The notes below the pieces were generated by a model, which saw only the letters and a program-made list of their open reading frames with translations, had not been told where the DNA came from and searched no databases. A stretch of 64,000 nt of DNA from positions 3,348,001 through 3,412,000 of the forward strand of contig NZ_CP106798.1 in assembly GCF_025642155.1 (NCBI RefSeq). Direction: 5' to 3'. Shown here piece after piece: positions 27,299 to 61,495 of the stretch. This DNA comes from Streptomyces sp. HUAS 15-9. Lineage in GTDB: Bacteria > Actinomycetota > Actinomycetes > Streptomycetales > Streptomycetaceae. Position 1 is the stretch's first letter. Each line of letters opens with the position of its first letter. A program made the position numbers and the translations under genes.

Positions 27299-27537
27299 GG
27301 ATGGCTCCCGGTGGGGCGAGGGTTCTCACGAGTGTGCCAACGCTATCGATGGGATCTGGCTGAGACCAAGCGGGTTCACGTCAAGGCCGGTCCCCAACCG
27401 GGCCGATCCGGGCAGAAGTTGCTGTGCCGTCGAGGGGTACTCCGCCCGCGAGCGGCCCAAAGTGATACGGAAGGTTGCCCCCAGCAGTCGAGTGGGAGGG
27501 CGCGCAATGGGCATCGCGCGCCGGTACCGTCGTTCAC

Positions 27538-27996
27538 ATGGACACGTCGTGGTGGCTCGCGCTGGTGGCGGTGGTGCTGCTCGCGCTGGTCGCCACGCTC
27601 GTCGACGGCTGGGGGCGCGGGCACCGTCCGCAGGGGCGCGGGAAGCGGCCGCCGGGCCGTCCGGAAGGGCCCCGGGGCCGTGCCGAGCGGCCGCGGCCCG
27701 GGGACATCTGGTGGGCGAACGTGCCGTTCGAGAACGGTCCGGGCACCAAAGACCGGCCATGTCTCGTTCTCGCCGTGCGCGGCAAGCGGGCGACGGTCGC
27801 GAAGATCACCAGCAAGTACCACGACGAACGCGCCGGAGTCATTCCGCTCCCGCCCGGCTCCGTCGGCGACGCCCACGGCCGCCCGAGCTTCCTGGAGACC
27901 GACGAACTGCGCCAGGTCCCGGTGTGGGACTTCCGCCGCCGGGTGGGCGTGGTCGACCCGGTCCTGTGGGACCAGGTAAGGCACCTCGCGGGCTGA
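27538..27996 (+). CDS. membrane-tethered PemK/MazF-like protein
   Basis: A 152-aa protein with an N-terminal membrane helix (residues 5-24, W-W-L-A-L-V-A-V-V-L-L-A-L-V-A-T-L), an Arg/Gly/Pro-rich linker (25-53) and a PemK/MazF-like domain from R-P-G-D-I-W-W-A (about 54) with K-D-R-P-C-L-V-L-A and L-x-T-D-E-L-R-Q-V-P. MazF-type toxins are ribosome-independent endoribonucleases, but this form is held at the membrane and no antitoxin gene adjoins it, so it may not be a toxin. ATG 27538 is chosen because it begins the hydrophobic segment. Confidence 0.78.
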   Translation: MDTSWWLALVAVVLLALVATLVDGWGRGHRPQGRGKRPPGRPEGPRGRAERPRPGDIWWANVPFENGPGTKDRPCLVLAVRGKRATVAKITSKYHDERAGVIPLPPGSVGDAHGRPSFLETDELRQVPVWDFRRRVGVVDPVLWDQVRHLAG

Positions 27997-28604: not shown

Positions 28605-28732
28605 TCAGCTGGTCGTCACGGCGGTGTCGTCCACGACGAAGCTGGTCTGCAGCGAGGAGTCCTCGACCCCGCTGAACTTGATCGTGACCGTCGAGCCCGC
28701 GAACGAGGACAGGTCGAAGGTCTTCTGGGATT
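28605..28732 (-). pseudogene. C-terminal scrap of a secreted protease-type beta domain
   Basis: Reading leftwards, about 40 codons give [22 protein letters not shown], then [12 protein letters not shown] and a TGA at 28605-28607. This resembles the C-terminal jelly-roll that ends several secreted Streptomyces proteases. Upstream it is cut by the right end of an IS200/IS605-type element at about 28733. No matching N-terminal part is visible on the other side of that element (39531-39690), so the rest was lost. Confidence 0.6.
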
Positions 28733-29090
28733 GACTTCCGCTCCCCGGGCTAAAGCCCGGGGATTCCTACCACGGTCGGCTGACCGTCTCGGTGGGTTCC
28801 TAATGGGCAGCAGTTGGAGCCGGAGAAGCCTCGTCCTGACCCAGGTGGATGAACCCTGAAATCGAGAGTGGCTCGATGGTTCTGACTCCGATCGATGGCG
28901 GGAGGGACGGGTTGTACTCGTCGTGGGTTCCCGGGGCCAGGACCCCTTGAATGCAGAGTCGAGCCGCCGCTTCTCCCGCCGTCCCGGTCACGTTGCCGGA
29001 CACCGGCGTCAGCACGATGCCCTCCGTTGATCCGGGCTTGAGCCCCTGAAAAAGACCGGCGGGTGCTGGCGCTCGTGGTCGGCAACGTGA
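28733..29090 (-). mobile_element. right-end part of an IS200/IS605-family element, separated from its tnpB
   Basis: On the minus strand this ends GGAATCCCCGGGCTTTAGC, CCGGGGAG, then GTCAA, the typical right-end hairpin of Streptomyces IS605-type elements (8-bp stem 28743-28750 with 28755-28762, loop TAAA). A second small hairpin lies at 28772-28787. Its missing left part is the tnpA/tnpB block at 39.7-41.4 kb: IS110 split the element and an inversion then carried the tnpB half away. This stretch should hold the guide (omega) RNA scaffold. The boundary with IS110 near 29090 is a guess. Confidence 0.6.
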
Positions 29091-29877
29091 CCGATCACAT
29101 GATCAGACCGTTGACGTTCATGGTCCGAGCCGCTCGCAGGGATCACCTCTGACCTGTTCAGGAGCCATCGAGCTCTTCTCAAGACTGAGGACCCTGCAGG
29201 TCGCTGGGGTCACGAACGGCTAATCGGATGACGGGCCATCGAGCCCTGCCATTAGGGAGACGCGTGCCCCGCACGGCTGTGACCAGCCAAAATACGCGAC
29301 TCACCCGAGAGGACGTGAACCGTATTGAGCGTGTTCTGCGGCATCGACTGGGCCAGCGACCACCACGACGTCGTCCTGGTCGACAACGCCGGATCCTTAC
29401 TGGACAAGGCCCGTATCGACGACAACGCCGACGGCCTGGCCCACCTCCTGCAGATGCTTACCGAGCACGGCGACAGCGCCGAAGCTCCCATTCCGGTGGC
29501 CATCGAGACCTCCCGCGGGCTGCTGGTCGCCTGCCTGCGCGCGACCGGCCGCCCCATCTACGCGATCAACCCGCTGGCCGCAGCACGCTACCGCGACCGG
29601 CATGCGGTCTCCCGCAAGAAGTCCGACCACCTCGACGCCGTGGTACTCGCGAACATCCTGCGCACCGACGCCGCCGCCCACCGCCAGCTGCCGGCCGACT
29701 CCGAGCTCGCCCAGGCAATCGCGGTCCTCGCCCGCGCTCAGCAGGACGCCGTGTGGGACCGCACCCAGGCCGCCAACAAGCTCACCTCGCACCTCCGCGC
29801 GTACTTCCCCGGCTTCCTCGCCTCCGTCGGCGTGCGCCGCGAGGGCGTCTGCCACCCCATCGCCCGCGTCCTGCTTG
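29090..29877 (+). mobile_element. left part of IS110-family element A (left end and N-terminal half of transposase)
   Basis: It holds the non-coding left end (about 29090-29324, no ORF), which in IS110 elements encodes the bridge RNA, followed by the first 184 codons of the transposase. The element stops at the inversion breakpoint TTG 29875-29877; the remainder is at 41429-42116 on the other strand. The outer boundary is not resolved. Confidence 0.6.
29325..29877 (+). pseudogene. IS110 transposase, N-terminal half
   Basis: From TTG 29325 (or GTG 29331) the frame reads F-C-G-I-D-W-A-S-D-H-H-D, the RuvC-like DEDD start of IS110 transposases, then A-I-E-T-S-R-G-L-L, A-I-N-P-L-A-A-A-R-Y-R and K-K-S-D-H-L-D-A-V-V-L-A with the catalytic acids, up to A-R-V-L-L. 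At TTG 29875-29877 it joins the body of an M6 protease in another frame. Joined to 42116-41429 it gives A-R-V-L-L-A-A-A-P-T-P-G-Q and a protein of about 413 aa, normal for the family. Confidence 0.85.
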
Positions 29878-32082
29878 AAGCAGCAGGAGCACAACCTCGA
29901 CGGTCCGCTCAGCAAGACCCAGGAGGCCCAGCGTCAGGAGGCCCTGAACCAGGTCATATCCGGCGAGGCCAAGGTCAAGGACCGCAACGGTTCGCAGGTC
30001 GTCCAGCTCAAGAGCAAGAAGGGCGACAGCAAGTACGTCGAGCTCGGCCGCGAGAAGACCGACAAGATCTTCACGATCCTGGTGGAGTTCGGCGATCAGA
30101 CCGACCCGAAGTACGGCGGCACGGCCGGCCCGCTGCACAACAAGATAGCCGCGCCGGACCGGGCCAAGGACAACTCGACGGCCTGGCAGAAGGACTACAA
30201 CCAGAAGCACTTCCAGGACCTCTACTTCGGCACCGGCAAGAAGACCGAGTCGATGAAGAAGTTCTACGAGAAGGAGTCCTCGGGCCGCTACTCGGTCGAC
30301 GGCGAGGTCGCCGACTGGGTCAAGGTCCCCTACAACGAGGCCCGTTACGGCAACAACGCCTGCGGCTCCACCAACTGCCCGAGCGTGTGGAACGTCGTCA
30401 GCGACGGCCTGAACTCCTGGGTCGCCCAGCAGAAGGCGGCCGGCCGTACCGACGCCCAGATCAAGACGGACGTGGCGAAGTTCGACCAGTGGGACCGCTA
30501 CGACTACGACGGCGACGGCAACTTCAACGAGCCCGACGGCTACATCGACCACTTCCAGATCGTGCACGCCGGTGAGGACGAGTCCGCGGGCGGCGGCGTC
30601 CAGGGCAAGGACGCGATCTGGGCCCACCGCTGGTACGCCTTCGGCACCGACGCCGGCGCCACCGGCCCCACGGGCAACAAGCTGGGCGGCGCGCAGATCG
30701 GCGACACCGGTGTCTGGGTCGGCGACTACACCATCCAGCCGGAGAACGGCGGACTCGGCGTCTTCGCCCACGAGTACGGCCACGACCTCGGTCTGCCGGA
30801 CCACTACGACACCACCGGCGGCGACAACTCCACCGGTTTCTGGACGCTGATGTCCTCCGGTTCCTGGCTCGGCCGGGGCAAGGACTCCATCGGCGACCTG
30901 CCGGGCGACTTCAGCGCCTGGGACAAGATGCAGCTCGGCTGGCTGAACTACGACACGGCCAAGGCCGGCAAGCAGTCCACCCACAAGCTGGGCGTCGCCG
31001 AGTACAACACCTGGGACAAGCAGGCCCTCGTGGTCTCCCTGCCGGACAAGGCGGTCACCACCACCGTCGTGACCCCGGCCGAGGGCGCGTCCCAGTGGTG
31101 GAGCGGCAGCGGTGACAACCTCAAGAACACGCTGACCCGTTCCGTCGACCTCACCGGCAAGTCCTCGGCCACGCTGAGCATGGACGGCTGGTACGACATC
31201 GAGGCCAACTACGACTACCTCTACACCGAGGTGTCGACCGACGGCGGCGCCAACTGGACCGCGATCGACGGCACGGTGGACGGCCAGGCCATCCCGCGCG
31301 ACGCCAGCAACGCCCCGGCGCTGACCGGCACGGTCGACGGCTACAAGAAGCTGTCGTACTCGCTGGACGCCTACGCGGGCAAGAAGATCGACGTCCGCTT
31401 CCGCTACGCGACCGACGGCGGCGTGGCCCAGAAGGGCTTCGCGGCCGACGAGATCACGCTGACCGCCGACGGCGCGACCGTGTTCTCCGACAACGCCGAG
31501 TCCGCGGACGCCGCTTGGACCGCGAACGGCTTCTCCCGCATCGGCGCGTCCTTCACCAAGGACTACGCGCAGTACTACATCGCGGAGAACCGCCAGTACG
31601 AGTCGTACGACAAGACCCTCAAGGTCGGCCCGTACAACTTCGGCTTCTCGACGACCCGTCCGGGCTGGGTGGAGCACTACCCGTACCAGAACGGTCTGCT
31701 GATCTGGAAGTGGGACACCTCCCAGGCGGACAACAACACCAGCCAGCACCCGGGCGCCGGCCTGGTCCTGCCGATCGACTCGCACCCGCAGGCGCTGAAG
31801 TGGGCCGACGGCACCCTGATGCGCAACCGCATCCAGGCGTACGACTCGCCGTTCAGCCTGTACGGCACGGACGGCATGACGCTGCATCTGGCGGACAAGG
31901 CGACCAAGATCAAGTCGTCGAAGGGCGTGCCGGTCTTCAACGACCACACGAGCACCTACTACGACGAATCGAACCCGACCGGTGGCGTCAAGATCACTGA
32001 CACCAACACCAAGATCAAGATCGTCAAGGAGGCCAAGAACGGCTCCACGATCTTGCTCCAGGTCGGACCCGCGGTGAAGTAG
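29878..32082 (+). pseudogene. M6-family metalloprotease (immune inhibitor A type), body without signal peptide
   Basis: 734 codons of a secreted zinc protease: an N-terminal Q-Q-E-H-N-L-D-G-P-L-S-K, the zinc motif H-E-Y-G-H followed by D-L-G-L-P-D-H-Y-D, and C-terminal beta domains (F-R-Y-A-T-D-G-G, then Y-P-Y-Q-N-G-L-L-I-W). It has no start or signal peptide; these lie at 42117-42266 on the opposite strand. Across the repaired joint the frame reads D-P-A-P-V-L-K-Q-Q-E-H-N, giving about 784 aa, the usual length. In its present state it is out of frame with the upstream transposase and cannot be exported, so the gene is inactivated. Confidence 0.9.
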
Positions 32083-32203
32083 TCCGCGTTTTCGCAGGTC
32101 AGAAGCGTATCGGCGGTGACCCCCTGGCGGGTTGCCGCCGATCGTGTTTAGGTGCGTCCTGTGGTCCTCTTATTGACACCGACGCACACGGGGGTGTGAC
32201 CGC

Positions 32204-32602
32204 ATGGCCGCAGGAGGTTTCTGCAAGCTGCCGAACGGCACGGTGGTGGTGGCACTGAACCTGCCCCGCCCCACCGCCGACGGCTCCGGCAGCGTGCGCG
32301 TTCTCGTCCACGCCCACAACCGCGCCCGCGCCCTGACGCGGCTGCGCAACCTGGGCATGCGCGCGGTCTACCTGCGGGGCAACGCGGCCCCGCCGACCCC
32401 GGACGAGATCACCGCGGTCCTGCACCACCCGGACGGCCTGATATGGCGCACGGCTCCCGACAACGGTGTCCCGGCACTCGATCCCGAACCGGTGACCGAG
32501 CTGTGGCGCCCGATCAGGGCCCTGCTGAGACGGCAGCCGACACCGCAGCCGACACCGCAGCCGACGCCGCAGCAGACGGTCCGGACGACGGTGCAGACCT
32601 AG
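32204..32602 (+). CDS. conserved hypothetical protein
   Basis: A 132-aa cytosolic protein of unknown function. After M-A-A-G-G-F-C-K-L-P-N-G-T it has a compact alpha/beta stretch (V-R-V-L-V-H-A-H-N-R-A-R-A-L-T-R-L-R-N-L-G, then V-Y-L-R-G-N) and ends in P-T-P-Q repeats. ATG 32204 lacks a clear ribosome binding site. Its TAG overlaps by 3 bases the stop of the convergent nicotinamidase gene. Confidence 0.65.
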   Translation: MAAGGFCKLPNGTVVVALNLPRPTADGSGSVRVLVHAHNRARALTRLRNLGMRAVYLRGNAAPPTPDEITAVLHHPDGLIWRTAPDNGVPALDPEPVTELWRPIRALLRRQPTPQPTPQPTPQQTVRTTVQT

Positions 32603-33186
32603 GCGACGACGGGCTTGCCCGACAGGTCCACGCCTGCCTCCCGCAGCTCCTCCAGGGCCCGCTCGGTGGTGTCCTCGGCCACCCCCGCGGTGAGGTCGAG
32701 CAGGACGTTCGTACGGAAACCCTCCCGCACGGCGTCCAGCGCGGTGGCGCGTACGCAGTGGTCCGTGGCGATGCCGACCACGTCCACTTCGTCGATGTCC
32801 CGGGCCCGCAGCCAGTCGCCCAGCGAGACGCCGTTCTCGTCCACGCCCTCGAAACCGCTGTACGCGGCCGCGTACGCCCCCTTCTCGAAGACGGCCTCGA
32901 CCGCGCCGGAGGCGACCGCCGGGGCGAAGTTCGGATGGAAGCCCACGCCCTCCGTCCCCGCGACGCAGTGCGCCGGCCAGGAGCGGACGTAGTCGGGGTT
33001 GTCCGCGAAGTGGCCGCCGGGCGCGATGTGGTGGTCGCGGGTGGCCACGACATGCCGGTAGCCGGCGGGGGCCTGCCCGATCAGCTCGGTGATGGCGGCG
33101 GCCACATCGGCACCCCCGGCCACCGCGAGGCTGCCCCCCTCACAGAAGTCGTTCTGCACGTCAACGACGATCAAGGCGCGGCGCAT
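32599..33186 (-). CDS. pncA: nicotinamidase (isochorismatase family)
   Basis: A 195-aa enzyme that hydrolyses nicotinamide to nicotinate. The triad is visible: Asp in I-V-V-D-V-Q-N-D-F, Lys in F-E-K-G-A-Y, Cys in G-I-A-T-D-H-C-V-R-A-T. The metal site lies in T-R-D-H-H-I-A-P-G-G-H-F. It is followed on the same strand, in the 5' direction, by nicotinate phosphoribosyltransferase (33290-34684), so the pair carries nicotinamide to NaMN for NAD salvage. ATG 33186. Confidence 0.9.
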   Translation of the reverse strand: MRRALIVVDVQNDFCEGGSLAVAGGADVAAAITELIGQAPAGYRHVVATRDHHIAPGGHFADNPDYVRSWPAHCVAGTEGVGFHPNFAPAVASGAVEAVFEKGAYAAAYSGFEGVDENGVSLGDWLRARDIDEVDVVGIATDHCVRATALDAVREGFRTNVLLDLTAGVAEDTTERALEELREAGVDLSGKPVVA

Positions 33187-33289
33187 GGTCGGTGTCCTTC
33201 GACTGGGGTCCCCCCGCTCGTGGAGCCCGGGGGAGAGTGAACTTACGAGCCTAGAGACTTCGGCGGCTGTCGGGGAGGGGGCACCTGCT

Positions 33290-34684
33290 CTAGCTACCCG
33301 ACTCCCCGTGGACGTACTCCGTCTGAAGGACGGGTTCCCCTCTGGACAGCTGGGTCGCGGACAGCGGCAGGTTGGCGCGGGCGGCCGTGTGCCGGTCGCG
33401 GACCACGTCCAGCGGCTCGCGGGCGACGACCTCGCCCCCCTTGACCAGCTCGACGAGCAGCTGCCTCTCGACCAGGTCGGCGGGCATCGGCCCGGTGCCG
33501 ACGACCTCGGCCTCCGCCACCCCCTCCGCGTCCAGCCGCCGCGCGGCCCATTTGCGGCCGCCGATGGAGGTCTTGCCGCCGGTGGACTTCTTCGCCACCG
33601 GCACCAGCGGCGCCCCGGGGTCGGTGGACTCGGCGCGGGCGACCAGCTTGTAGACCATCGAGCAGGTCGGATGCCCGGAACCGGTCACCAGCTGCGTACC
33701 GACGCCGTACGCGTCCACGGGCGCGGCGGCGAGCGAGGCGATGGCGTACTCGTCGAGGTCCGAGGTCACGACGATCTTCGTGCCGGTGGCGCCCAGGTCG
33801 TCCAGCTGCTGCCGCACCCGGTGCGCGACGAGGAGCAGGTCGCCGGAGTCGATGCGCACCGCGCCCAGCTCGGGTCCGGCCACCTCCACGGCCGTACGGA
33901 CGGCTTCCGCCACGTCGTACGTGTCCACGAGCAGCGTGGTGCCCCGGCCCAGGGAGTCGACCTGGGCCCGGAAGGCGTCCCGCTCGCGGTCGTGCAGCAG
34001 GGTGAAGGCGTGCGCGGAGGTGCCGACGGTCGGAATGCCGTAGCGGAAGCCGGCCGCCAGGTCCGAGGTGCTCGCGAAACCGCCGAGGTAGGCGGCCCGT
34101 GAGGCGGCGACGGCGGCCAGCTCGTGGGTGCGGCGGGCGCCCATCTCGATCAGCGGCCGGGTCCCGGCGGCCGAGGACATGCGGGAGGCGGCGGCCGCGA
34201 TCGCGGAGTCGTGGTTGAGGATGGACAGGATCACGGTCTCCAGGAGCACGCACTCGGCGAAGGTGCCCTCCACCCGCATGATCGGTGAGCCCGGGAAGTA
34301 CACCTCGCCCTCGGGGTAGCCCCAGATGTCACCGCTGAAGCGGTAGCCGGCCAGCCACTCCAAGGTCTCCTCGTCGACGATCTGCCGCTCGCGCAGGAAG
34401 CCGAGGACGCCCGCGTCGAACCGGAAGTTCTCGACCGCGTCCAGGACGCGCCCGGTGCCCGCCACGACGCCGTAGCGGCGGCCCTCGGGCAGCCGACGGG
34501 TGAAGACCTCGAACACGCTGCGCCGTTCGGCGGTACCCGCCTTGAGGGCGGCCCGCAGCATCGTCAGCTCGTACTGGTCCGTGAAAAGCGCCGTCGAGGG
34601 AACGCCCACCCGTCGCCCACCACCGCCCTTGTGAGGAAGCGCTTCGCGCCCTTCTTCTGGCAGCCCAAGGTCCGCTGTGTTCAT
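33290..34684 (-). CDS. pncB: nicotinate phosphoribosyltransferase
   Basis: A 464-aa NAPRTase that makes NaMN from nicotinate and PRPP. Family blocks: [11 protein letters not shown] near residue 35, [18 protein letters not shown], a H-D-S-A-I-A-A-A segment, L-V-D-T-Y-D, and [11 protein letters not shown] 34684 is preferred over a GTG-like start 7 codons upstream. It diverges from clpS across 57 bases and sits 103 bases upstream of pncA. Confidence 0.92.
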
Positions 34685-34741
34685 GGCAACCGATGGTACC
34701 CCCATTTCGTCAGTGTGACGATTTATGGCGTGCGTGGCAGC

Positions 34742-35059
34742 ATGGGCCCTGTGACGTCACCCGCTCCCGTAGAGATCGAACGCACCGAATCGGCGGAAGA
34801 GACCTTCGCCGTACCCGAGCCCGACGTCCCCTGGGTCACGATCGTCCACAACGACCCGGTCAACCTCATGAGCTACGTGACCTATGTCTTCCAGGCGTAT
34901 TTCGGGTACACGAAGGACAAGGCAACCAAGCTCATGCTCGACGTTCACCACAAGGGCCGGGCGGTCGTCTCCAGCGGCAGTCGCGAGGAGATGGAACGCG
35001 ACGTGCAGGCGATGCACGGTTACGGCCTGTGGGCCACCCTCCAGCAGGACCGGAAGTAG
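34742..35059 (+). CDS. clpS: ClpS, adaptor of the ClpAP/ClpCP protease
   Basis: A 105-aa N-end-rule adaptor. The core [16 protein letters not shown] has the Asn-Asp of the N-degron pocket; V-H-x-K-G-R-A-V-V and R-E-E-M-E-R-D-V follow. It delivers proteins with destabilising N-termini to Clp. ATG 34742 or GTG 34751 are both possible starts; neither has a strong ribosome binding site. The next gene, DUF2017, starts 12 bases downstream, the usual actinobacterial pairing. Confidence 0.93.
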
Positions 35060-35071
35060 CGAATCTCCTCC

Positions 35072-35677
35072 ATGCCCGGAACCTTCGAACCGCTCCCCGG
35101 CGGCGGCGCGGCCGTCGCGCTCGACGACGTCGAGATCTCCATCATCCGGTCGCTGGCCGTCCAGCTCCTGGAGCTCATCGGTCCCGGCCCCGGCGCGGAG
35201 GCCCCCGAGGACCCGCTCGCCGAACTGTTCGCCGAGGGCCCGAGCGAACCGCCCGCCGACCCGGTGCTGCGCCGGCTCTTCCCGGACGCCTACAGCGACC
35301 CGGAGCTGGCCCCGGACTCGCCGAAGGACGCCGAGGAGCAGCGGGCCCACTCCGCGGAGTTCCGCCGCTACACCGAGAACGACCTGCGGGCCGGCAAGCG
35401 CGAGAGCGCGCTCGCGGTGATCGGCTCGCTGGACGCGCTCGCCCCGGTGGGGGAGGAGGGCGCGGTCCTCAAGCTCTCCCCCGAGGAGTCCCGGCGGTGG
35501 CTGGGCGCGCTCAACGATCTGCGTCTGGCGATCGGCTCCCGGCTGGAGATCACGGACGAGGACGACACCGATCTGCTCTACCGGCTCCCCGACGAGGACC
35601 CGCGCAAGCCGATGGTGATGGCGTATCTGTGGCTGGGCGGACTCCAGGAGACTCTGGTCGCCACCCTTATGCCCTGA
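35072..35677 (+). CDS. DUF2017 family protein
   Basis: A 201-aa actinobacterial protein of unknown function, regularly found after clpS and before a JAMM protease. It has F-E-P-L-P-G-G-G then V-A-L-D-D-V-E-I-S-I-I-R-S-L, D-P-V-L-R-R-L-F-P-D-A-Y, and Y-L-W-L-G-G-L-Q-E-T-L-V at the end. ATG 35072 lies 12 bases after the clpS stop, so the two are cotranscribed. Confidence 0.88.
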   Translation: MPGTFEPLPGGGAAVALDDVEISIIRSLAVQLLELIGPGPGAEAPEDPLAELFAEGPSEPPADPVLRRLFPDAYSDPELAPDSPKDAEEQRAHSAEFRRYTENDLRAGKRESALAVIGSLDALAPVGEEGAVLKLSPEESRRWLGALNDLRLAIGSRLEITDEDDTDLLYRLPDEDPRKPMVMAYLWLGGLQETLVATLMP

Positions 35678-35998
35678 TTCGAACCGGTCACGCGTTCGCT
35701 CAGAGGACGCTCAAATCCGGATAACGATCGCGTCACCAGTGCGGCCTGGTATGCCCCCTACGGGTGCTCTTTGTCCGCTTCTTCCTGTGCCGTGCGCCAC
35801 AGCGGGCAGAGTCGATCAATGTTGCGGCCGTGATAGATCTTCACGACCGCCCGGCGAACACCACCCATGTTCGGCCGGGTGCGCCACCGAGCCGGCGACC
35901 GCCGGCCAGGCAACAGCTCCATCAATCCGGGGGGATCGAAACCCGATCCGAGGCCGACTCGAGGCCCGGTTCGGCATGGAGAAAGGCGCACACAACTC
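35678..35998. other. intergenic region, 321 bases
   Basis: Upstream region of the permease gene. It contains a GCCGGC/GCCGGC hairpin at about 35892-35907 and otherwise mixed sequence. A riboswitch or attenuator is possible given the length, but I recognise no known class. No gene is supported. Confidence 0.4.
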
Positions 35999-37423
35999 AT
36001 GACCTCCGCTCAGGTCGACACGGAGAAGACCTCCGAAGAGGGTTACGAGCGCGGACTCGGCAGCCGCCAGGTCCAGATGATCGCCATCGGCGGCGCCATC
36101 GGCGTCGGCCTGTTCCTGGGAGCCGGGGCGAACATCGCCAAGGCCGGTCCCAGCCTCATCCTGATGTACGCCCTCGCGGGCGCCATCGTCTTCTTCATCA
36201 TGCGGGCGCTCGGCGAGCTCCTGCTGTACCGCCCGGTCTCGGGCTCCTTCGCGGAGTACTCCCGCGAGTTCCTCGGCCCGTTCTTCGGCTACTTCACCGG
36301 CTGGACGTACTGGCTGATGTGGGTCGTGACCGGCATGGCCGAACTGACGGCCGCCGCGATCTACGTCCACTACTGGTTCCCGCACATCCCGCAGTGGGTG
36401 ACCGCCCTGGTCTTCCTGGTGATCCTCTTCGGGGTCAACCTGATCTCCGTGAAGGTCTTCGGCGAGCTGGAGTTCTGGTTCTCGATGGTCAAGGTCACCG
36501 CCCTCATCGGCATGATCGTGATCGGCCTGGGCGTGCTGACCTTCGGCTTCAGCTCCGCCGGTGACACCGCCGCGGTGTCCAACCTCTGGCAGTTCGACGG
36601 CTTCTTCCCCAAGGGCATCGGCTCGTCCCTGATGACCCTGCAGGGCGTCATGTTCGCCTACCTCGCCGTCGAGTTGGTCGGTGTCACGGCCGGCGAGTCC
36701 GAGGACCCGGAGAAGACCCTCCCCAAGGCGATCAACACCCTGCCCTGGCGTATCGCCCTCTTCTACGTCGGCGCCCTCACCGTCATCCTGTGCGTGGTCA
36801 AGTGGACCGAGTTCGCGCCCGGCGTGAGCCCCTTCGTCGCCGCCTTCGCCAAGATCGGCATCCCGGCCGGCGCCGGCATCGTCAACTTCGTGGTGCTCAC
36901 CGCCGCCCTGTCGTCCTGCAACTCCGGCATGTACTCCACGGGCCGCATGCTGCGCACCCTGGCCGACAACGGCGAGGCCCCGCGGGTCTTCAGCAAGCTG
37001 TCGTCCACCAAGACGCCCGCCTTCGGCATCACGGTCTCGGTCCTCTTCATGGGTATCGGCGTGATCCTGAACTACATCGTCCCGGAGAAGGCCTTCGGCT
37101 ACGTCATGTCCGTCGCCACCGCGGCCGGCATCTGGACCTGGCTGATGATCCTGATCAGCCACGTCCTGTACCGCCGCGCGGTCGTCGCGGGCCGGCTGCC
37201 CGCCTCCGCCTTCCCGGCGCCGGGCGGCGCGGTGTGCAGCTGGATCGCCATCGTGTTCCTGCTCTTCGTCACGGGCCTGATCGCGTACGACGCCGACTCC
37301 CGCGTCTGCCTGTACGTGATGGCCGGCTGGGCCGCCGCCCTCGGTGTCGGCTGGGCCGTGCTCAAGGCCCGCAACCCTCAGGTCACCGAGCGCCGCGAGC
37401 CGGTGCTCGAGAAGGTCGGCTGA
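35999..37423 (+). CDS. amino-acid permease (APC superfamily)
   Basis: A 474-aa transporter with about twelve membrane helices. Helix 1 reads Q-M-I-A-I-G-G-A-I-G-V-G-L-F-L-G-A-G, the substrate-binding motif of the AAT/GabP-type subgroup; F-A-E-Y-S-R-E-F-L-G, V-E-L-V-G-V-T-A-G-E-S-E-D-P and C-N-S-G-M-Y-S-T-G-R-M-L are further marks. ATG 35999 is the family start. The substrate is not defined. It lies between DUF2017 and the cysteine genes and ends at a strong terminator. Confidence 0.9.
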   Translation: MTSAQVDTEKTSEEGYERGLGSRQVQMIAIGGAIGVGLFLGAGANIAKAGPSLILMYALAGAIVFFIMRALGELLLYRPVSGSFAEYSREFLGPFFGYFTGWTYWLMWVVTGMAELTAAAIYVHYWFPHIPQWVTALVFLVILFGVNLISVKVFGELEFWFSMVKVTALIGMIVIGLGVLTFGFSSAGDTAAVSNLWQFDGFFPKGIGSSLMTLQGVMFAYLAVELVGVTAGESEDPEKTLPKAINTLPWRIALFYVGALTVILCVVKWTEFAPGVSPFVAAFAKIGIPAGAGIVNFVVLTAALSSCNSGMYSTGRMLRTLADNGEAPRVFSKLSSTKTPAFGITVSVLFMGIGVILNYIVPEKAFGYVMSVATAAGIWTWLMILISHVLYRRAVVAGRLPASAFPAPGGAVCSWIAIVFLLFVTGLIAYDADSRVCLYVMAGWAAALGVGWAVLKARNPQVTERREPVLEKVG

Positions 37424-37500
37424 CCTCACCCCAGGGACGTCCGGCCGCGGGGAGCACTCGTGGCGCCCCCAGCGGCCGCCGCTCAGGGCGTCCGGCATAT

Positions 37501-37537
37501 GGGCCGCCCCGTACCAGCCTTCGGTACGGGGCGGCCC
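37501..37537 (+). terminator. terminator after the permease
   Basis: A perfect 15-bp stem (37501-37515 with 37523-37537) and 7-base loop, 77 bases after the permease stop and 20 before the JAMM protease start, so the latter needs its own promoter or read-through. Confidence 0.8.
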
Positions 37538-37556
37538 TCTGCTTATCCTGACCGAC

Positions 37557-37979
37557 ATGCTGACCATCACCCAGGCCCTCCACGACCAGATCGTCGCCCA
37601 TGCCCGCAAGGACCACCCCGACGAGGCGTGCGGCGTCGTCGCGGGCCCGGCGGGTTCGGACCGCCCCGAGCGCTTCGTCCCGATGCTGAACGCGGCCATG
37701 TCGCCCACCTTCTACGAGTTCGACTCGGGCGACCTGCTCAAGCTCTACCGGGACCTGGACGACCGGGACGAGGAGCCGGTGGTGATCTACCACTCCCACA
37801 CGGCGACCGAGGCTTACCCGTCCCGCACCGACATCTCCTACGCCAATGAGCCCGGCGCCCACTACGTGCTGGTCTCCACGGCCGACACCGACGGCCTCGG
37901 CGAGTTCCAGTTCCGCTCCTTCCGCATCCAGGACGGCGAGGTCAAGGAGGAGGAGGTCAAGGTCGTGGAGGCCTACTGA
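37557..37979 (+). CDS. mec: JAMM-type protease, Mec-like (CysO processing)
   Basis: A 140-aa Mov34/MPN (JAMM) metalloprotease. The zinc motif is H-S-H-T-A-T-E-A-Y-P-S-R-T-D with an upstream Glu in D-E-A-C-G-V-V. In Mycobacterium Mec releases cysteine from the sulphur carrier CysO after CysM has built it. Here cysO and cysM follow within 600 bases. CysO carries two residues after its GG, so this protease may also mature CysO (inference). ATG 37557. Confidence 0.88.
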   Translation: MLTITQALHDQIVAHARKDHPDEACGVVAGPAGSDRPERFVPMLNAAMSPTFYEFDSGDLLKLYRDLDDRDEEPVVIYHSHTATEAYPSRTDISYANEPGAHYVLVSTADTDGLGEFQFRSFRIQDGEVKEEEVKVVEAY

Positions 37980-38066
37980 GGGGAGGATCCCGCAGTTCGG
38001 TCAGAATTCATCCACGATGCGAGATCACACTCCAGGATCCGGACCGGGAATCGATACGATGAGCCC

Positions 38067-38162
38067 ATGGTTCTGAACGACGTGAGCGAAAAGACGCCGG
38101 GCATGCTGCTCGTGGCGCGGCTGCACGTCGACCTGTGCAGGCTCGCCAGCGCCATCTGTTGA
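38067..38162 (+). CDS. 31-aa leader peptide upstream of cysO-cysM (putative attenuator)
   Basis: ATG 38067 opens a 31-codon frame ending A-R-L-H-V-D-L-C-R-L-A-S-A-I-C then TGA 38160-38162. The R-x-H-V-D-L-C-R-x-A-S-A-x-C motif is that of the short putative leader peptides upstream of sulphur-metabolism genes in Streptomyces. Two Cys codons, one just before the stop, suit attenuation that responds to cysteine supply. The 120-base leader after it, rich in GC and with partly complementary stretches (for example about 38176-38200), leads to cysO at 38284. Confidence 0.75.
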   Translation: MVLNDVSEKTPGMLLVARLHVDLCRLASAIC

Positions 38163-38283
38163 CGCCGAACACTGCCGCCGTACGGCCGTGAGCCGCGGCA
38201 CGTTTGACCGCGTACGAGTACGCCCCCCCCAGCGCCGCCGCGCGCCCCACCGACCTGACTACTTCCGACAGGAGCCCGCACCC

Positions 38284-38562
38284 ATGGCCATCGAGGTCCG
38301 CATCCCCACCATCCTCCGCACGTACACCGACGGTCAGAAGGCGGTGGAGGGCAGTGGTGAGACCCTCGCCGAGCTGCTCGCCGACCTCGAGACCCGGCAC
38401 ACGGGCATCCATGCCCGGATCGTCGACGAAGGCAGGCTGCGCCGCTTCGTCAATGTCTACCTGAACGACGAGGACGTCCGCTTCCTCGACAACATCAACA
38501 CCAAGCTGTCCGACGGTGACGCGGTGACGATCCTCCCCGCTGTCGCCGGCGGCATGGCCTGA
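38284..38562 (+). CDS. cysO: CysO-like sulphur-carrier protein (MoaD/ThiS family)
   Basis: A 92-aa ubiquitin-like sulphur carrier. It matches mycobacterial CysO closely: V-x-I-P-T-I-L-R near the start, F-V-N-V-Y-L-N-D-E-D-V-R-F-L in the middle and D-A-V-T-I-L-P-A-V-A-G-G at the end. A thiocarboxylate on the C-terminal Gly donates sulphur to CysM. Unlike the Mycobacterium protein, two residues (Met-Ala) follow the GG, so a trimming step must come first. The cysM start is 17 bases downstream, in one operon. Confidence 0.9.
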   Translation: MAIEVRIPTILRTYTDGQKAVEGSGETLAELLADLETRHTGIHARIVDEGRLRRFVNVYLNDEDVRFLDNINTKLSDGDAVTILPAVAGGMA

Positions 38563-38573
38563 TCGGCCGCTGA

Positions 38574-39530
<957 letters not shown>

Positions 39531-39549
39531 GGCTCATCAAGCAGCCGCC

Positions 39550-39571
39550 AGCCCCCTCTCACGAGGGGGCT
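39550..39571 (+). terminator. terminator after cysM
   Basis: A perfect 9-bp stem AGCCCCCTC / GAGGGGGCT with a TCAC loop, 20 bases after the cysM stop. Confidence 0.75.
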
Positions 39572-39689
39572 AAACGCTGCCTATGGAGCGGCAAAGATCT
39601 TTCCGCGGTACTGCCGGGGTCCCCGCGCCGAGGCTACGGTCCTCGCGCACTCCCCTGAGTGTCATGCTCATGGCTGCACGGACCCCGCC

Positions 39690-41428
39690 GCTACCGGGTC
39701 TAATCGCAGTGCACCGGGCTTTGGCCCGGTGGTGAAGCGATTCTGAGAAGTGCTCTGACTTGCCTGTGCACATGGGTCCGCACTGTCGACCTCAGCTCAG
39801 ACGGGCCGGTTCTGCTGCTCGATGTACTGTTTCACGATCGACAGAGGAGCCCCGCCGACCGACCCGGCGAAGTACGAGCCGGACCACAGCCGCTGTGCCC
39901 GCCAGTAGTGTCGGACCAGTTCCGGATACTCCTGGCGGAGCCTGCGGGAACTGACGCCCTTGAGGCTGTTGACCAGCTTGGACAGGGCAACTTTCGGCGG
40001 GAAGTTCACGAGCAGGTGGACGTGGTTGTTCTCGCCGTTGAACTCGACCAGCTCGCATTCGAAGTCGGCGCAGACGGCCCGCATGATCTCTTCCATGCGC
40101 GTCAGGTGGGCGTCATTGAAGACCTTGTGCCGGTACTTCGTCATGAAAACCAAGTGTGCGTGAAGAACGAAGACACAGTGTCGGCCGGTGCGGATGTTCT
40201 GATACTCAGCCATAAACCAACCGTAGTAGGGTCAGAGGTATGCAGCTGAGGTACAGCTTCCGCCTGTATCCGAATGGTTTTCAGCGCTCAGCGTTGGCCA
40301 GGGCGTTCGGGTGTGCGCGGGTGGTCTACAACGATGCGCTTCGCGCCCGTGAGACCGCCCGCGCCGCGGGCGAGGCGTTCCCGAAGACCGGGGAGCTGTC
40401 CAAACTGCTGATCACCGAGGCCAAGCTCACCGAAGAGCGCGCATGGCTCGGCGAGGTGTCCGCCGTCGTCCTCCAGCAGTCCCTCCGGGACCTGGACACC
40501 GCATACCGGAACTTCTTCGACGGCCTCAAGGGCAAGCGCCCGCGCATGGGAGCGCCCCGGTTCAAATCCCGCAAGGACAACCGGCAGGCCGTACGGTTCA
40601 CCGCGAACGCCCGATGGAAGATCACGACCGGCGGGGACCTGTCCCTGCCGAAGATCGGCGACGTGCGGGTCAAGTGGTCCCGCAATCTCCCCTCCGTGCC
40701 GTCCACGGTAACCGTGATCAAAGACGCTGCCGGGAGATACTTCGCGTCCTTCGTCGTGGAGACCGGCCCCGAGACGCTGCCCGACGTGGCAGCCGCCGTC
40801 GGCATCGACCTGGGCCTCGGGCACTTCGCGGTCCTCTCCGACGGCACGAAGATCGACGCCCCGCGCTTCCTGCGCCGGGCCGAGAAGAAACTCAAGAGGG
40901 AACAGCGCCGCCTGTCCCGCAAGGCCAAGGGATCGAAGAACAGGGACAAGGCCCGCATCAAGGTCGCCCGCGCTCACGCGCAGGTGGCCGACGCACGGCG
41001 CGAGTTCCACCACCAGCTCTCAACGAGGATCATTCGCGACAACCAAGCGATTGCCGTTGAGGACCTGGCGGTGAAGGGGCTCGCTCGTACGCGCCTGGCC
41101 AAGTCCGTCCACGACGCGGGATGGTCCGCGTTCGTGACGATGCTGGAGTACAAGGCCGCGAAGTTCGGCCGCAGCTTCCTCCGCATCGGACGGTTCGAGC
41201 CGACCTCCCAGGTCTGCTCGCAGTGTGGCGTCAAGGACGGCCCCAAACCCCTGCACATTCGCGTGTGGGAATGCGGGGCTTGCGGGGCCGTCCTCGACCG
41301 GGACATCAACGCGGCGGTCAACGTCGCCAAGGCCGCCGGACTGGCGGTGTCAGCCTGTGGAGCGCAGGTAAGACGGGTACTCGTACCGGCCCAGCGCGGT
41401 GAAGCAGACATCCGATGCGGAAGAACTG
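39690..41428 (+). mobile_element. left part of an IS200/IS605-family element (left end, tnpA, tnpB)
   Basis: The element has divergent tnpA (minus) and tnpB (plus). Its left end carries a two-part hairpin at 39702-39742: AATCGC pairs with GCGATT outside and CACCGGGC with GCCCGGTG inside. The tnpB end is cut by the end of IS110 element A at about 41428, and the missing right end lies at 28733-29090. The exact left boundary is uncertain. Between the cysM terminator and the element (39572-39701) only a distant inverted pair (39615-39622 with 39680-39687) is seen. Confidence 0.7.
39797..40213 (-). CDS. tnpA: IS200/IS605 transposase TnpA (HUH, Y1)
   Basis: A 138-aa single-strand DNA transposase. 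The HUH metal motif is N-H-V-H-L-L-V and the catalytic Tyr lies in I-V-K-Q-Y-I-E-Q-Q near the C-terminus; V-F-M-T-K-Y-R-H-K-V-F near the start is conserved. It would cut and join the element's hairpin ends. It looks intact, but its own right end has been carried 12 kb away. It diverges from tnpB with 26 bases between. Confidence 0.92.
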   Translation of the reverse strand: MAEYQNIRTGRHCVFVLHAHLVFMTKYRHKVFNDAHLTRMEEIMRAVCADFECELVEFNGENNHVHLLVNFPPKVALSKLVNSLKGVSSRRLRQEYPELVRHYWRAQRLWSGSYFAGSVGGAPLSIVKQYIEQQNRPV

Positions 41429-41505
41429 TCAAGCGGCATCCGCTAGTTGAGTGTCTGATGGGGCGGCGAAGGCCACCGTTTCGCTGTAGTGGACGCGGTG
41501 GGTGA
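40240..41505 (+). CDS. tnpB: TnpB RNA-guided nuclease of the IS605 element, with an altered C-terminus
   Basis: A 421-aa TnpB. The RuvC acids lie in G-I-D-L-G-L-G-H-F-A, V-E-D-L-A-V-K-G-L and L-D-R-D-I-N-A-A-V-N-V; the zinc ribbon is C-S-Q-C ... C-G-A-C-G. TnpB uses an omega RNA encoded over its gene's 3' end to cut DNA. From about 41429 (after R-G-E-A-D-I-R-C-G-R-T-V) the frame runs into IS110 sequence, so the last 25 or so residues are foreign, and the normal 3' guide RNA region and right end are missing. Confidence 0.88.
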   Translation: MQLRYSFRLYPNGFQRSALARAFGCARVVYNDALRARETARAAGEAFPKTGELSKLLITEAKLTEERAWLGEVSAVVLQQSLRDLDTAYRNFFDGLKGKRPRMGAPRFKSRKDNRQAVRFTANARWKITTGGDLSLPKIGDVRVKWSRNLPSVPSTVTVIKDAAGRYFASFVVETGPETLPDVAAAVGIDLGLGHFAVLSDGTKIDAPRFLRRAEKKLKREQRRLSRKAKGSKNRDKARIKVARAHAQVADARREFHHQLSTRIIRDNQAIAVEDLAVKGLARTRLAKSVHDAGWSAFVTMLEYKAAKFGRSFLRIGRFEPTSQVCSQCGVKDGPKPLHIRVWECGACGAVLDRDINAAVNVAKAAGLAVSACGAQVRRVLVPAQRGEADIRCGRTVKRHPLVECLMGRRRPPFRCSGRGG

Positions 41506-42116
41506 GGCAGTGGTGGAGGCAGCCGAGCATGCGGTTGAAAAGGTTGCGCTGAGCGGCGGTGTGGCGGTCTCCGGCCTTGCGGCGGCGGTCGTAGTGGGCT
41601 CTGGCGCCGTCTGAGTGGGCCATGGCGGCGAAGGCCCACACGTAGCCGACACCGGCCAGTCGCTGGTTCTTGACCCGGCGGGCAAGGACGGCCACGCTCT
41701 TGCCGGAGGCCCTGGTGATCGGGGCCGAACCGGCGTAAGCCTTGAGGCTTTTCGCGTCGGCGAAGCGGGATCGGTCGTCGCCGATCTCGGCGAACACCCG
41801 GGCGCCGCTGAGCGCGCTGAGCCCTGGGAAGCCGGTGATGATCTCGGCGTCCGGGTGCTGCTTAAAGACTCCATCGCGGCCTCGGCGAGGTCGTCGGCGC
41901 TGGCGCAGGCGGCATCCAGCTGCCGCAGCAGGGCGAGGGTCTGGCGGCCCATGGCCTCTTCGACCAGCGGGAGCTGGCGCATCTGCGGGGCGCGCAGCGC
42001 GGTCTGGAGACGCTCTGCCTCTGCATCGATGGTGTTCTTGCGACCGGCCTTCTTCAGCAACGACCGCAACTGGGCGCGGGTCAGCTGGGCGGCCTGGCCG
42101 GGGGTGGGGGCGGCCG
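41429..42116 (-). pseudogene. IS110 transposase, C-terminal half (element A), with a frameshift
   Basis: Read from 42116 to 41429: A-A-P-T-P-G-Q-A-A-Q-L-T-R-A-Q-L, then Q-L-P-L-V-E-E-A-M-G, then after a slip H-P-D-A-E-I-I-T-G-F-P-G, A-R-V-F-A-E-I-G-D-D, and A-Y-A-G-S-A-P-I-T-R-A-S-G-K-S, the IS110/IS902 C-terminal domain with its serine. One T is missing in TCTTTAAG at 41864-41870, so the frame breaks there. The N-terminal half is at 29325-29877. Its stop TGA is 41431-41429, right at the joint with tnpB. Confidence 0.85.
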
Positions 42117-42266
42117 CAACACCGGCGCCGGGTCGTGCCGGTTCGCGGCAGCGGACTTGGCCGTCGTGCCGGCCTCCGCCACGGCGAACGTCGAGAACGT
42201 GGCGGTGGCCGCCGCGAGTGCCACACCGATCGCGGCCGCTCTGAACGTCCAGGGTCTGCTGATCAC
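42117..42266 (-). pseudogene. M6 protease: start and signal peptide, cut from its body
   Basis: GTG 42266 has GGGGGAGGAAG 5 bases upstream and opens W-T-F-R-A-A-A-I-G-V-A-L-A-A-A, a signal peptide, then N-R-H-D-P-A-P-V-L, ending at TTG 42119-42117. There it meets IS110 sequence. The body that should follow (K-Q-Q-E-H-N-L-D) is at 29878-32082. Frame and sense fit exactly across the joint. It is still next to its native promoter region, so this end did not move. Confidence 0.88.
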
Positions 42267-42666
42267 TTGCTTCCTCCCCCGCGTCCGGGCACACGGAAGG
42301 GGGTCCTGGTCATGGAGGTCCGTGCGCGCCTGATCAACGCGTGTAGTCAAGTGACGACATTTGACTAGAGGTTTAAAAGAAAAGACAGACCTTGACTTGG
42401 ACAGGACAAGTGCACTATGCGGAGCGGGAGTTCGCTTTACGAACGCCTCGCATACGACTTGACGGGCGCGCGAGTCCGTCCACTTGGCGGACCCCATGAC
42501 TCCGTGCGCCCCCTGTGCACCGGTACCGTGGGTTAGGTCACGCTTACCGGCGGTTCCACTCGGGCATGCACGCGATTAGAGTCGAATGGTGGAACGCCCG
42601 GAAGTCGGCGGAAAGCCAGGCCGGTTACCCGTCTCACCCCCAATATCTTCCGAGGACACGATTGCC
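42267..42666. other. intergenic region, 400 bases, divergent promoters
   Basis: It lies between the M6 start (minus) and the small membrane protein gene (plus). The part around 42340-42420 is unusually AT-rich for this genome. It has several TTGACT/AGTCAA boxes: an inverted pair AGTCAA (42345-42350) and TTGACT (42361-42366), another TTGACT at 42392-42397, and TTGACG at about 42459. These suggest promoter or operator elements of the protease gene. No other gene is supported. Confidence 0.5.
42345..42366. promoter_or_regulatory. inverted repeat AGTCAA-N10-TTGACT
   Basis: A perfect 6-bp inverted repeat with a 10-base spacer, about 80-100 bases upstream of the protease GTG, in an AT-rich stretch with further TTGACT boxes. 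A regulator site is likely but the factor is unknown. Confidence 0.35.
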
Positions 42667-59026: not shown

Positions 59027-60062
59027 GGCTGTCCTCGCACTCGCGCAGGTGTGCCACGGGGACGTACTCCCCCGCCGTGTGTGCGAGCGACGGGTCCCCG
59101 GGGCCGTAGTTGAGCGCGGGCACGCCCAGCGCGGCGAACCGGGCCACGTCGGTCCAGCCGAGCTTGGGCCGGGGCTCGGCGCCGAGCACGGCGACGAGGT
59201 CACCGACCTGCTCAAGGCTGGGCAGCGCTCCCGGTACGACCTCGGTGACCCGCACTTCGTACTCGGGGAAGAGCCCGCGGACGTACGCCTCCGCCTCCTC
59301 GGCCGAACGGTTCGGTGCGAAACGGGAGTTGACCGTGACGATACACTCGTCGGGCACGACGTTCCCGGCGACCCCGGCCCGTACGGCGACCGCGCCGAGC
59401 CCCTCCCGGTACTCCAGTCCGTCGATGACGACGCGCTCCGGCGTGTGGTCGTCGAGCCGCTGGAGGACGCGGGCGGCCTTGTGGGCGGCGTTGACGCCCT
59501 TCCAGGCGCGGGCGGTGTGGGCGCGTTCGCCCCGTACGACGATGTCGGCGCTGAGGATGCCCTGGCAGCCCGCCTCGATGCCGGCGTCGGAGGGCTCCAT
59601 GAGGATCGCGAGGTCAACCTGTTCGAGGAGGCCGGGCCGTTCGGCGGCGATCCGGCCGAGCCCGTTGCGCTCGCCCTCGACCTCCTCGCACTCGTAGAAG
59701 ACGAAGGTGAGGTCGAGCGCCGGGTCCGGGACGGTGGCCGCGAGGCGCAGGGCCACGGCCACTCCGCCCTTCATGTCGCAGGCGCCGAGTCCGTGGACGC
59801 GGTCGTCGGCGAGCCGGGAGGGGAGGTTGCCGGCGGCCGGGACGGTGTCCAGGTGCCCGGCGATCACGGCCCGCCGGGGGCGGCCCAGCCCGGTGCGGGC
59901 GACGACCGAGTTCCCGACGCGCTCCACGGTGAGGTGGGGCAGGGCGGCCAGGGCCGCCTGGACGGCGTCCGCGATCGCGGCCTCCTCCCCGCTCTCGGAG
60001 GGGAGGTCGACGAGGGCCCGGGTGAGGTCGACGACGTCGGCGGTGAGGTCCAGGGAGGTCAT
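59007..60062 (-). CDS. M20-family deacylase (DapE/N-succinyl-amino-acid desuccinylase type)
   Basis: A 351-aa metallo-peptidase: G-H-L-D-T-V-P (His and Asp), G-A-C-D-M-K-G-G-V-A-V-A-L (bridging Asp), Y-E-C-E-E-V-E-G-E (catalytic base and ligand) and a late H in S-L-A-H-T-A-G. It could be the succinyl-diaminopimelate desuccinylase of lysine synthesis or, given the racemase and GNAT genes next door, an N-succinyl-L-amino-acid desuccinylase. ATG 60062. Its upstream region is now occupied by an IS110 element. Confidence 0.88.
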   Translation of the reverse strand: MTSLDLTADVVDLTRALVDLPSESGEEAAIADAVQAALAALPHLTVERVGNSVVARTGLGRPRRAVIAGHLDTVPAAGNLPSRLADDRVHGLGACDMKGGVAVALRLAATVPDPALDLTFVFYECEEVEGERNGLGRIAAERPGLLEQVDLAILMEPSDAGIEAGCQGILSADIVVRGERAHTARAWKGVNAAHKAARVLQRLDDHTPERVVIDGLEYREGLGAVAVRAGVAGNVVPDECIVTVNSRFAPNRSAEEAEAYVRGLFPEYEVRVTEVVPGALPSLEQVGDLVAVLGAEPRPKLGWTDVARFAALGVPALNYGPGDPSLAHTAGEYVPVAHLRECEDSLRKWLL

Positions 60063-60109
60063 GCGAGGTCCTACCTTTCAAGGGTGGTTGCTCTGGTCAT
60101 TCGTAAGAT

Positions 60110-61495
60110 CGGAGGGCCCAGGGGTTCTCGGTATGGCTGTCATGCGAGCGCCGGTTCGACGGCTCAAAGGACTTGGCCGCCCGGAGCCCCGCGACGACTC
60201 GACCGCCAATTGGGAGACGCGACTCGATCGCTGCTGTAGGACAACGTCGGCGAGGTCGTCTGCGGGATCGATGTGATGGCGAGCTGGCGGAGGGGAACGT
60301 GCCCGAGATCTGGGCCGGAGTGGACATCGGCAAGGAACACCACCATTGCGTGGTGATCAACGCGGATGGCGAACGTCTGCTGTCCCGTCGGGTCCTGAAC
60401 GACGAGACCGAGCTGCTGCAGCTCATCGGCGATGTCCTGGCGATATCCACCGACGTGCTGTGGGCCGTCGACCTCAACCACGGCGGCGCCGCTTTGCTGA
60501 TTGGCCTGCTGCTCAATCACGGCCAGCCGATGGCTTACCTCACCGGCCTGGCGGTCCACCGGGCCTCGGCCACCTACAAGGGCGAGGGCAAGACCGACGC
60601 GAAGGACGCCTTCGTCATCGCCGACCAGGCCCGGGTCCGCCGGGACCTCGGGCTGCTGCGGCCCGGTGACGAGATCGCCGTCGACCTGCGCACTCTGACC
60701 ACCCGGCGGCTGGACGTGGTCTTCGACCGCACCCGGCAGATCAACCGTCTGCGGGCTCAACTGCTGGAGATCTTCCCCGCGTTGGAACGGTCGCTGGACC
60801 TGGTCAACAAGGGCCCGGTGACGCTGCTGACCGGCTACCAGACCCCGGCCGCGATCCGCCGCGCGCGTCAAGCGGATCGAGACCTGGCTGAAGCACCGCA
60901 AGGTCCGCGGCGCCGCCACGCTCGCGAAGAAGGCGGTGGAAGCCGCGCAAGCCCAGCAGACTGCGCTGCCCGGCGAGAGGCTGGCCGCCGCCATGGTGGT
61001 CCGCCTCGCGAAGGGGGTGATGGCCCTCGATGAGGAGATCGCCGAGCTCGACGCCCTGATCGAGGCCAGGTTTCGCGAGCATCCGCACGCCGAGGTGATC
61101 CGCAGCCTCCCCGGTATGGGCACCAAGCTGGGTGCCGAGTTCATCGCCGCCACCGGCGGTGACATGGACGCCTTCGGCAGCGCCGACCGACTGGCCGGCT
61201 TCGCCGGCTTGGCCCCCAGACCACGCGACTCCGGCCGCGTCAGCGGCAACCTGCGCAGGCCCAAGCGGTACCACCGTGGCCTGCTGCGGTCGATGTACCT
61301 CTCGGCGATGGTCAGCATCACGACATGCTCCGCCTCCAAGGCGTACTACCAGCGCAAGCGCAGCGAGGGGAAAGGACACAAGCAGGCCCTGCTGGCCCTC
61401 GCTCGCCGCAGGCTCAACGTCTTGTGGGCGATGATCCGTGACGGAGAGTGCTATCAAGGTTCACCTCCCGTCACGGCTGCGGCTTGACATCACGA
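60110..61495 (+). mobile_element. IS110-family element B, inserted at the permease 3' end
   Basis: The element holds a frameshifted IS110 transposase (60299-61487) and a non-coding left end (about 60110-60298), where IS110 elements encode a bridge RNA. The right boundary lies within a few bases after the transposase stop, inside the last codons of the permease. The boundaries are estimates; I see no clear target duplication, as expected for IS110. Confidence 0.6.
60299..61487 (+). pseudogene. IS110-family transposase (element B), frameshifted
   Basis: GTG 60299 has GCGGAGGGG upstream and opens W-A-G-V-D-I-G-K-E-H-H-H, the DEDD start; then A-V-D-L-N-H-G, K-T-D-A-K-D-A-F-V-I-A-D. At about 60861-60868 the frame slips: after I-R-R-A the sense resumes as V-K-R-I-E-T-W-L-K-H-R in another frame, then S-L-P-G-M-G-T-K-L-G-A-E-F and F-A-G-L-A-P-R-P-R-D-S-G-R-V-S-G. 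The C-terminal domain has no other break. It is only distantly related to the transposase of element A. Confidence 0.85.

Follow-up and report, generated by a model that had tools for sequence, protein, structure and literature searches.

A 12.2-kb inversion divides an IS110 transposase gene and an M6 protease gene in Streptomyces sp. HUAS 15-9 and carries three extra base pairs relative to related loci

The locus examined here raises the question of how an IS110 transposase gene and a secreted M6 protease gene came to be divided so that each half of one is joined to a half of the other. It lies in a 64,000-nucleotide stretch of Streptomyces sp. HUAS 15-9 (contig NZ_CP106798.1, positions 3348001-3412000, strand +), which we refer to as the window and which belongs to a 9.6-Mb genome of 3 contigs with a completeness of 100. 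A sequence-only reading of the window had proposed a 12.2-kb inversion with one break in the insertion sequence (IS) and the other in the protease gene, and had attributed it to a reciprocal exchange at a three-base TTG microhomology common to both parents, with no net change in bases. The inversion is confirmed by the contiguity of both pairs of halves elsewhere, in other copies within the same genome for the transposase and in relatives for the protease, while the joints point to a different origin. In window coordinates, the features are as follows.

28730..28799 (outer end approximate), strand -: remaining right end of the IS200/IS605 element, across IS110, with a hairpin and the tnpB tail beside 28800
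28800..29877, strand +: left IS110 part, comprising the left end with a long non-coding region and transposase codons 1-184; 99.7-100% identical to five other copies in the same genome
29875..29877, strand +: TTG copy 1, left joint; one TTG in the IS copies, none here in protease relatives
29878..32082, strand +: M6 protease body without start and signal peptide; Peptidase_M6, InhA-like_MAM and InhA-like_VEG domains; 97% protein identity to locus L029
29878..42116, no strand assigned: inverted segment, placed by relatives that join 42120 to 29876 and by domain matches; it holds the protease body, an isochorismatase-type gene, an NAPRTase gene, further genes, a PALP-type gene, the IS200/IS605 element and the right IS110 part (judging by their domains, the three named genes are putatively pncA, pncB and cysM, respectively)
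39685..41405, strand +: IS200/IS605 element, with the Y1 transposase gene tnpA (39797-40213, strand -) and tnpB (from 40240, strand +); Y1_Tnp, OrfB_IS605 and Cas12f1-like_TNB domains
41406..42119, strand -: right IS110 part, comprising transposase residues 185-413 and the right end; 99.7-100% identical to copies L109, L110, L111 and both pieces of L113
42117..42119, strand -: TTG copy 2, right joint (the 3-bp duplication); one TTG in the IS copies, none here in protease relatives
42120..42266, strand -: M6 protease start and signal-peptide part; contiguous with 29876 in 79/80 relatives

The protease half of the argument comes from relatives, for which we took the best 80 of 468 loci from a search with the protease body (Peptidase_M6, E 4.9e-113); this set may leave the window's own genome and very close ones unrepresented. 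The 42120 side adjoins the 29876 side in all of these loci except one, L076, which reads N at this point, and none of the 80 carries the split protease arrangement, the finding that the sequence-only reading had named as its refutation. In the window, the reading frame of the start part (open reading frame 42081-42497, with a signal peptide identified by eye) now stops at 42081 within IS110 sequence. Gene order in the relatives runs from the RDD side through the protease and the equivalent of 29876 to ~39530 in line, followed by the left-flank genes reversed, and flipping ~29878-42116 therefore gives back their order. Both cysM and the left flank could be located in 61/80 loci, while in the other 19 a search of the fetched stretch did not find one or both. 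The inverted order is thus the derived state of the window. Across the 80 loci, no match begins within either IS region (28800-29860 and 39700-42100).

The transposase half of the argument comes from the window's own genome. The DEDD_Tnp_IS110 domain (E 9e-37) and the Transposase_20 domain (E 3.1e-12) lie on separate pieces, the left one corresponding to residues 1-184 of an intact copy, and the two together align with a single unbroken 413-aa copy. The element measures ~1.79 kb, spanning 28800-29877 and then 42119-41406, with CT at both ends. Five other copies in the genome (L109-L113) are unsplit at the same TTG, all reading CTGC-TTG-CGG, with L113 interrupted further along. Left-part sequence (29150-29877) is matched at 100% six times in the genome, counting the window, and once more, over a short length, at 81%; the right part gives nine matches, seven at 99-100% (one in the window, two from a single interrupted copy) plus a short pair at 86-90%. 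The right part of L112, aligned to the window together with its less similar tnpB flank, scores 88.5% overall, compared with 99.8% against L109. Uninterrupted 413-aa transposases are found in L109 and L110, while L111 and L112 change frame elsewhere. The expectation of a ~413-aa transposase upon rejoining the halves holds at the joint, which is in frame at residue 184/185, but not further on: relative to L109, the right part shifts frame near residue 269, so that the split copy, whether from before the inversion or since, carries a defect independent of it.

The IS110 element sits in the tnpB tail of the IS200/IS605 element, and the homology of the left flank to relatives ends at 28727-28728 in 5/5 relatives checked. 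L112 occupies the same place in another tnpB (6669-9914 of L112, compared with 28800-29325 and 39685-41405 of the window): the IS110 left parts of the two loci are 99.9% identical and the shared sequence of the surrounding IS605-type elements only 82% alike, suggesting that IS110 entered a preferred target independently in the two cases.

What happened at the breaks can be read from the joints, CTGCTTG-AAG on the left and CCGGTG-TTGCGG on the right. The IS parent reads CTGC-TTG-CGG, and the protease reads CCGGTG-AAG in L029 and in 23/36 loci with the KQ motif. None of these 36 has TTG before the K codon (34 are in register; L089 and L101 read GCC there), and the protease parent was very probably without it. 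As TTG belongs to the IS and is now present twice, three bases were gained. The right joint allows one division between the parents and the left joint three (with TTG, TT or T as the last IS bases), always with a gain of 3 bp, and homology at the joints amounts to at most 2 bp (TG) on the left and none on the right. The two break sites have no long homology to each other in inverted orientation, the best match being 4 bp in 28-bp stretches. The exact 20-mer across the left joint occurs in 1/392 genomes of the genus, namely the window's own. Allowing up to 2 mismatches, 34/392 genomes match, those outside the own genome always with 2 mismatches; we attribute these matches to chance because a reversed control pattern matches more often.

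The proposed reciprocal exchange at a TTG in both genes, with no bases gained, would account for the triplet at both joints, and it finds some room in the length of the protease spacer between DP and xxLxGP, which is 8 residues in the window. Among 94 loci (the 80 best plus 14 from a further search, with species overlap between the sets possible), this spacer has 7 residues in 60, 8 in 26, 6 in 3 and 10 in 2, while 2 loci have no motif and 1 is too short. In view of the KQ-motif loci, however, and of the GTG-AAG of the nearest relative (L029), such an exchange would need this lineage to have acquired, by chance, an identical triplet at exactly this position, and we regard it as quite improbable.

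We instead consider it likely that the inversion originated from staggered breaks, fill-in and end joining. Insertion of IS110 into the tnpB tail beside cysM would have come first. Later, two double-strand breaks would have occurred ~12.2 kb apart, in the IS110 transposase at codons 184-185 and in the M6 protease gene after ~49 codons. Their stagger, at one break or both, would have totalled 3 nt. Fill-in of the overhangs would have been followed by non-homologous end joining through the Ku pathway, with the intervening segment ligated in reverse and TTG left at both joints, the duplicated bases being divided between IS and protease as 3+0, 2+1 or 1+2. A search for Ku gives 2 matches in the window's own genome. 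The outcome is a transposase in two pieces and a protease body deprived of its start and signal peptide. The claim that the exported protease is inactivated is a fair inference from these missing parts, and the one M6 gene match in the genome is the window's own. Among plasmid records, 4 match the protease body, none covering over 80% of it.

Break repair in the genus provides a close parallel. In Streptomyces ambofaciens, repair scars have 1-6 nt of microhomology in 50% and nucleotide addition in 40%, the additions being one non-templated nucleotide or a fill-in of 1-4 nt (PMC5869714). The likeness extends to the few-nt fill-in, the little or no microhomology and the Ku-bearing host; in contrast, those scars stem from induced breaks, and the word inversion is absent from that paper, whereas here a natural inversion preserves both of its joints. 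In Drosophila, inverted duplications at inversion ends have been interpreted as filled-in staggered breaks (PMC7584159). They resemble the present case in that the inverted state alone carries such a duplication, at each of its ends, although the overhangs quoted there are 58 and 534 nt, compared with 3 bp in all in a bacterium here.

Several observations weigh against this account. The same Drosophila work names repair without staggered breaks as an alternative source of such duplications (PMC7584159). The protease spacer varies, and one of the 26 relatives with the window's length belongs to the KQ group (L089), albeit with its extra residue after KQ. Moreover, the closest relative of the protease body that we found, Streptomyces olivochromogenes A53 (L029), is another species at 97% protein identity and not a same-species pre-inversion gene; a TTG codon already present in the protease parent nevertheless appears unlikely from the sequences compared. 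The joints are those of the assembly, and IS110 is repeated in the genome, which is where an assembly error or chimeric read might arise. Yet the joints lie mid-repeat rather than at the repeat's termini, each has a unique sequence on one side, they complement each other, and the genome comes in 3 contigs with a completeness of 100, making an artefact very unlikely. Exchange of topoisomerase or gyrase subunits could yield near-reciprocal joints with short duplications. Such an exchange is not distinguishable here from end joining, and we deem it highly unlikely. Finally, CTGCTT adjoins each of the breaks, and 11 bp of the protease site recur in the target of IS110 itself, which random breaks leave unexplained.

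This last point raises the question of whether the IS110 enzyme took part. The element is probably of the bridge-RNA type, with two candidate regions identified by sequence match.

28923..28931, strand +: GTGGGTTCC, identical to the sequence on the left flank of the IS110 insertion site; candidate left target guide of the bridge RNA
29223..29255, strand +: candidate donor-binding loop, in which ATCGGATG (29223) is identical to a segment of the right end and GCCATTAG (29248) complements the left end

When folded against shuffled sequences, the whole left end gives a z of -3.6 and three shorter pieces give -0.8 to -1.4; because the shorter pieces do not stand out from shuffles, we claim no bridge-RNA structure. 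We also observe that the first 170-196 bp of the left end (28800-28990) are unaligned in the five best element relatives (L116-L120), in which the remainder aligns, while in L127 and L133 the alignment begins at the terminus itself. Going by these alignments, the left end possibly combines a fast-changing target-guide part of the bridge RNA with a conserved donor-guide part.

A recombinase guided by this RNA might have cut off-target sites, in its own transposase gene and in the protease, or made the inversion itself, and the related IS621 can invert DNA given suitable sites (PMC11208160). We compared the break sites with IS110 targets, which after CT read GCTTCACC in the window's tnpB, GCTTCGCC in L109 and L112 and CGATGCC in L111, using the L029 sequence as the pre-inversion protease site. 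The counts that follow are of best ungapped matches in one orientation, for comparisons picked after viewing the sites. The protease site and the tnpB insertion site have CTGCTTCACCG in common (11 bp), a score reached by 5/6000 random sites, or by 21/6000 over three targets; the IS site and the tnpB target have TCCTGCTT in common (8 bp; 173/6000), and the IS site matches the L109 target over 10 bp, out of register with the CT core (50/6000 over three targets). Compared with each other, the two break sites match over 7 bp directly (462/6000 pairs) and 4 bp inverted. The CTGCTTCACCG likeness concerns 29865-29890 and the protease break site at 42110-42125.

Although the single-comparison likeness is above chance, it was found after the fact, and neither orientation nor crossover position fits IS110-guided recombination, which we rejected. 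CTGCTT lies in direct orientation at both sites, and loxP-like sites so placed lead to excision (PMC11208160). The joints fall 2-6 bp past CT, whereas IS621 cuts beside CT (PMC11208158). The candidate left guide fits the two break sites at 3/8 and 1/8 positions, compared with 8/8 at tnpB, which is a weak test, as the real sites of L109 and L111 score 0 and 3. By eye, no donor-like site was seen. Programmable inversion by IS621 (PMC11208160) and the Piv invertase (PMC11187229) resembles the present case in having an IS110 element at the break with CT at its ends and differs in that exchange here is away from CT and the sites are wrongly oriented. A role for the IS110 enzyme is thus not supported, and we judge direct or off-target action by it quite improbable. 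The same holds for a variant in which bridge-RNA-guided off-target cuts left abortive ends that were then rejoined inverted by end joining; if true, a genome would here have been reshaped in nature by off-target breaks that a bridge RNA had directed. The 11-bp likeness remains unexplained.

Two further candidates were set aside. Since the protease site resembles tnpB sequence, we considered cutting by the IS200/IS605 TnpA or TnpB at the end of their own element, and rejected it in that the resembling sequence lies within the tnpB tail rather than at the element end. A second IS110 family at 60057-61507 of the window was likewise rejected after a comparison, by eye only, of its ends and flanks with the breaks; it has four further copies in the genome at 99.4-99.9%.

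Inversion by illegitimate recombination is already well established, and the present case adds a further instance; among the titles listed by searches on Streptomyces IS110/transposase inversion and on chromosomal inversion, insertion sequences and illegitimate recombination, none reports this event. It is a natural Streptomyces inversion whose two preserved joints can be read at single-base resolution, and its scar would be of the fill-in type known from laboratory studies of break repair in the genus. It also illustrates that a triplet common to two joints is not necessarily microhomology and that relatives need checking. For annotation, both gene pairs are fragments from one inversion rather than fusion genes. 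To the left of the inversion, the window also encodes a PemK/MazF-like protein at 27475-27996 (PF02452, E 3.9e-9).

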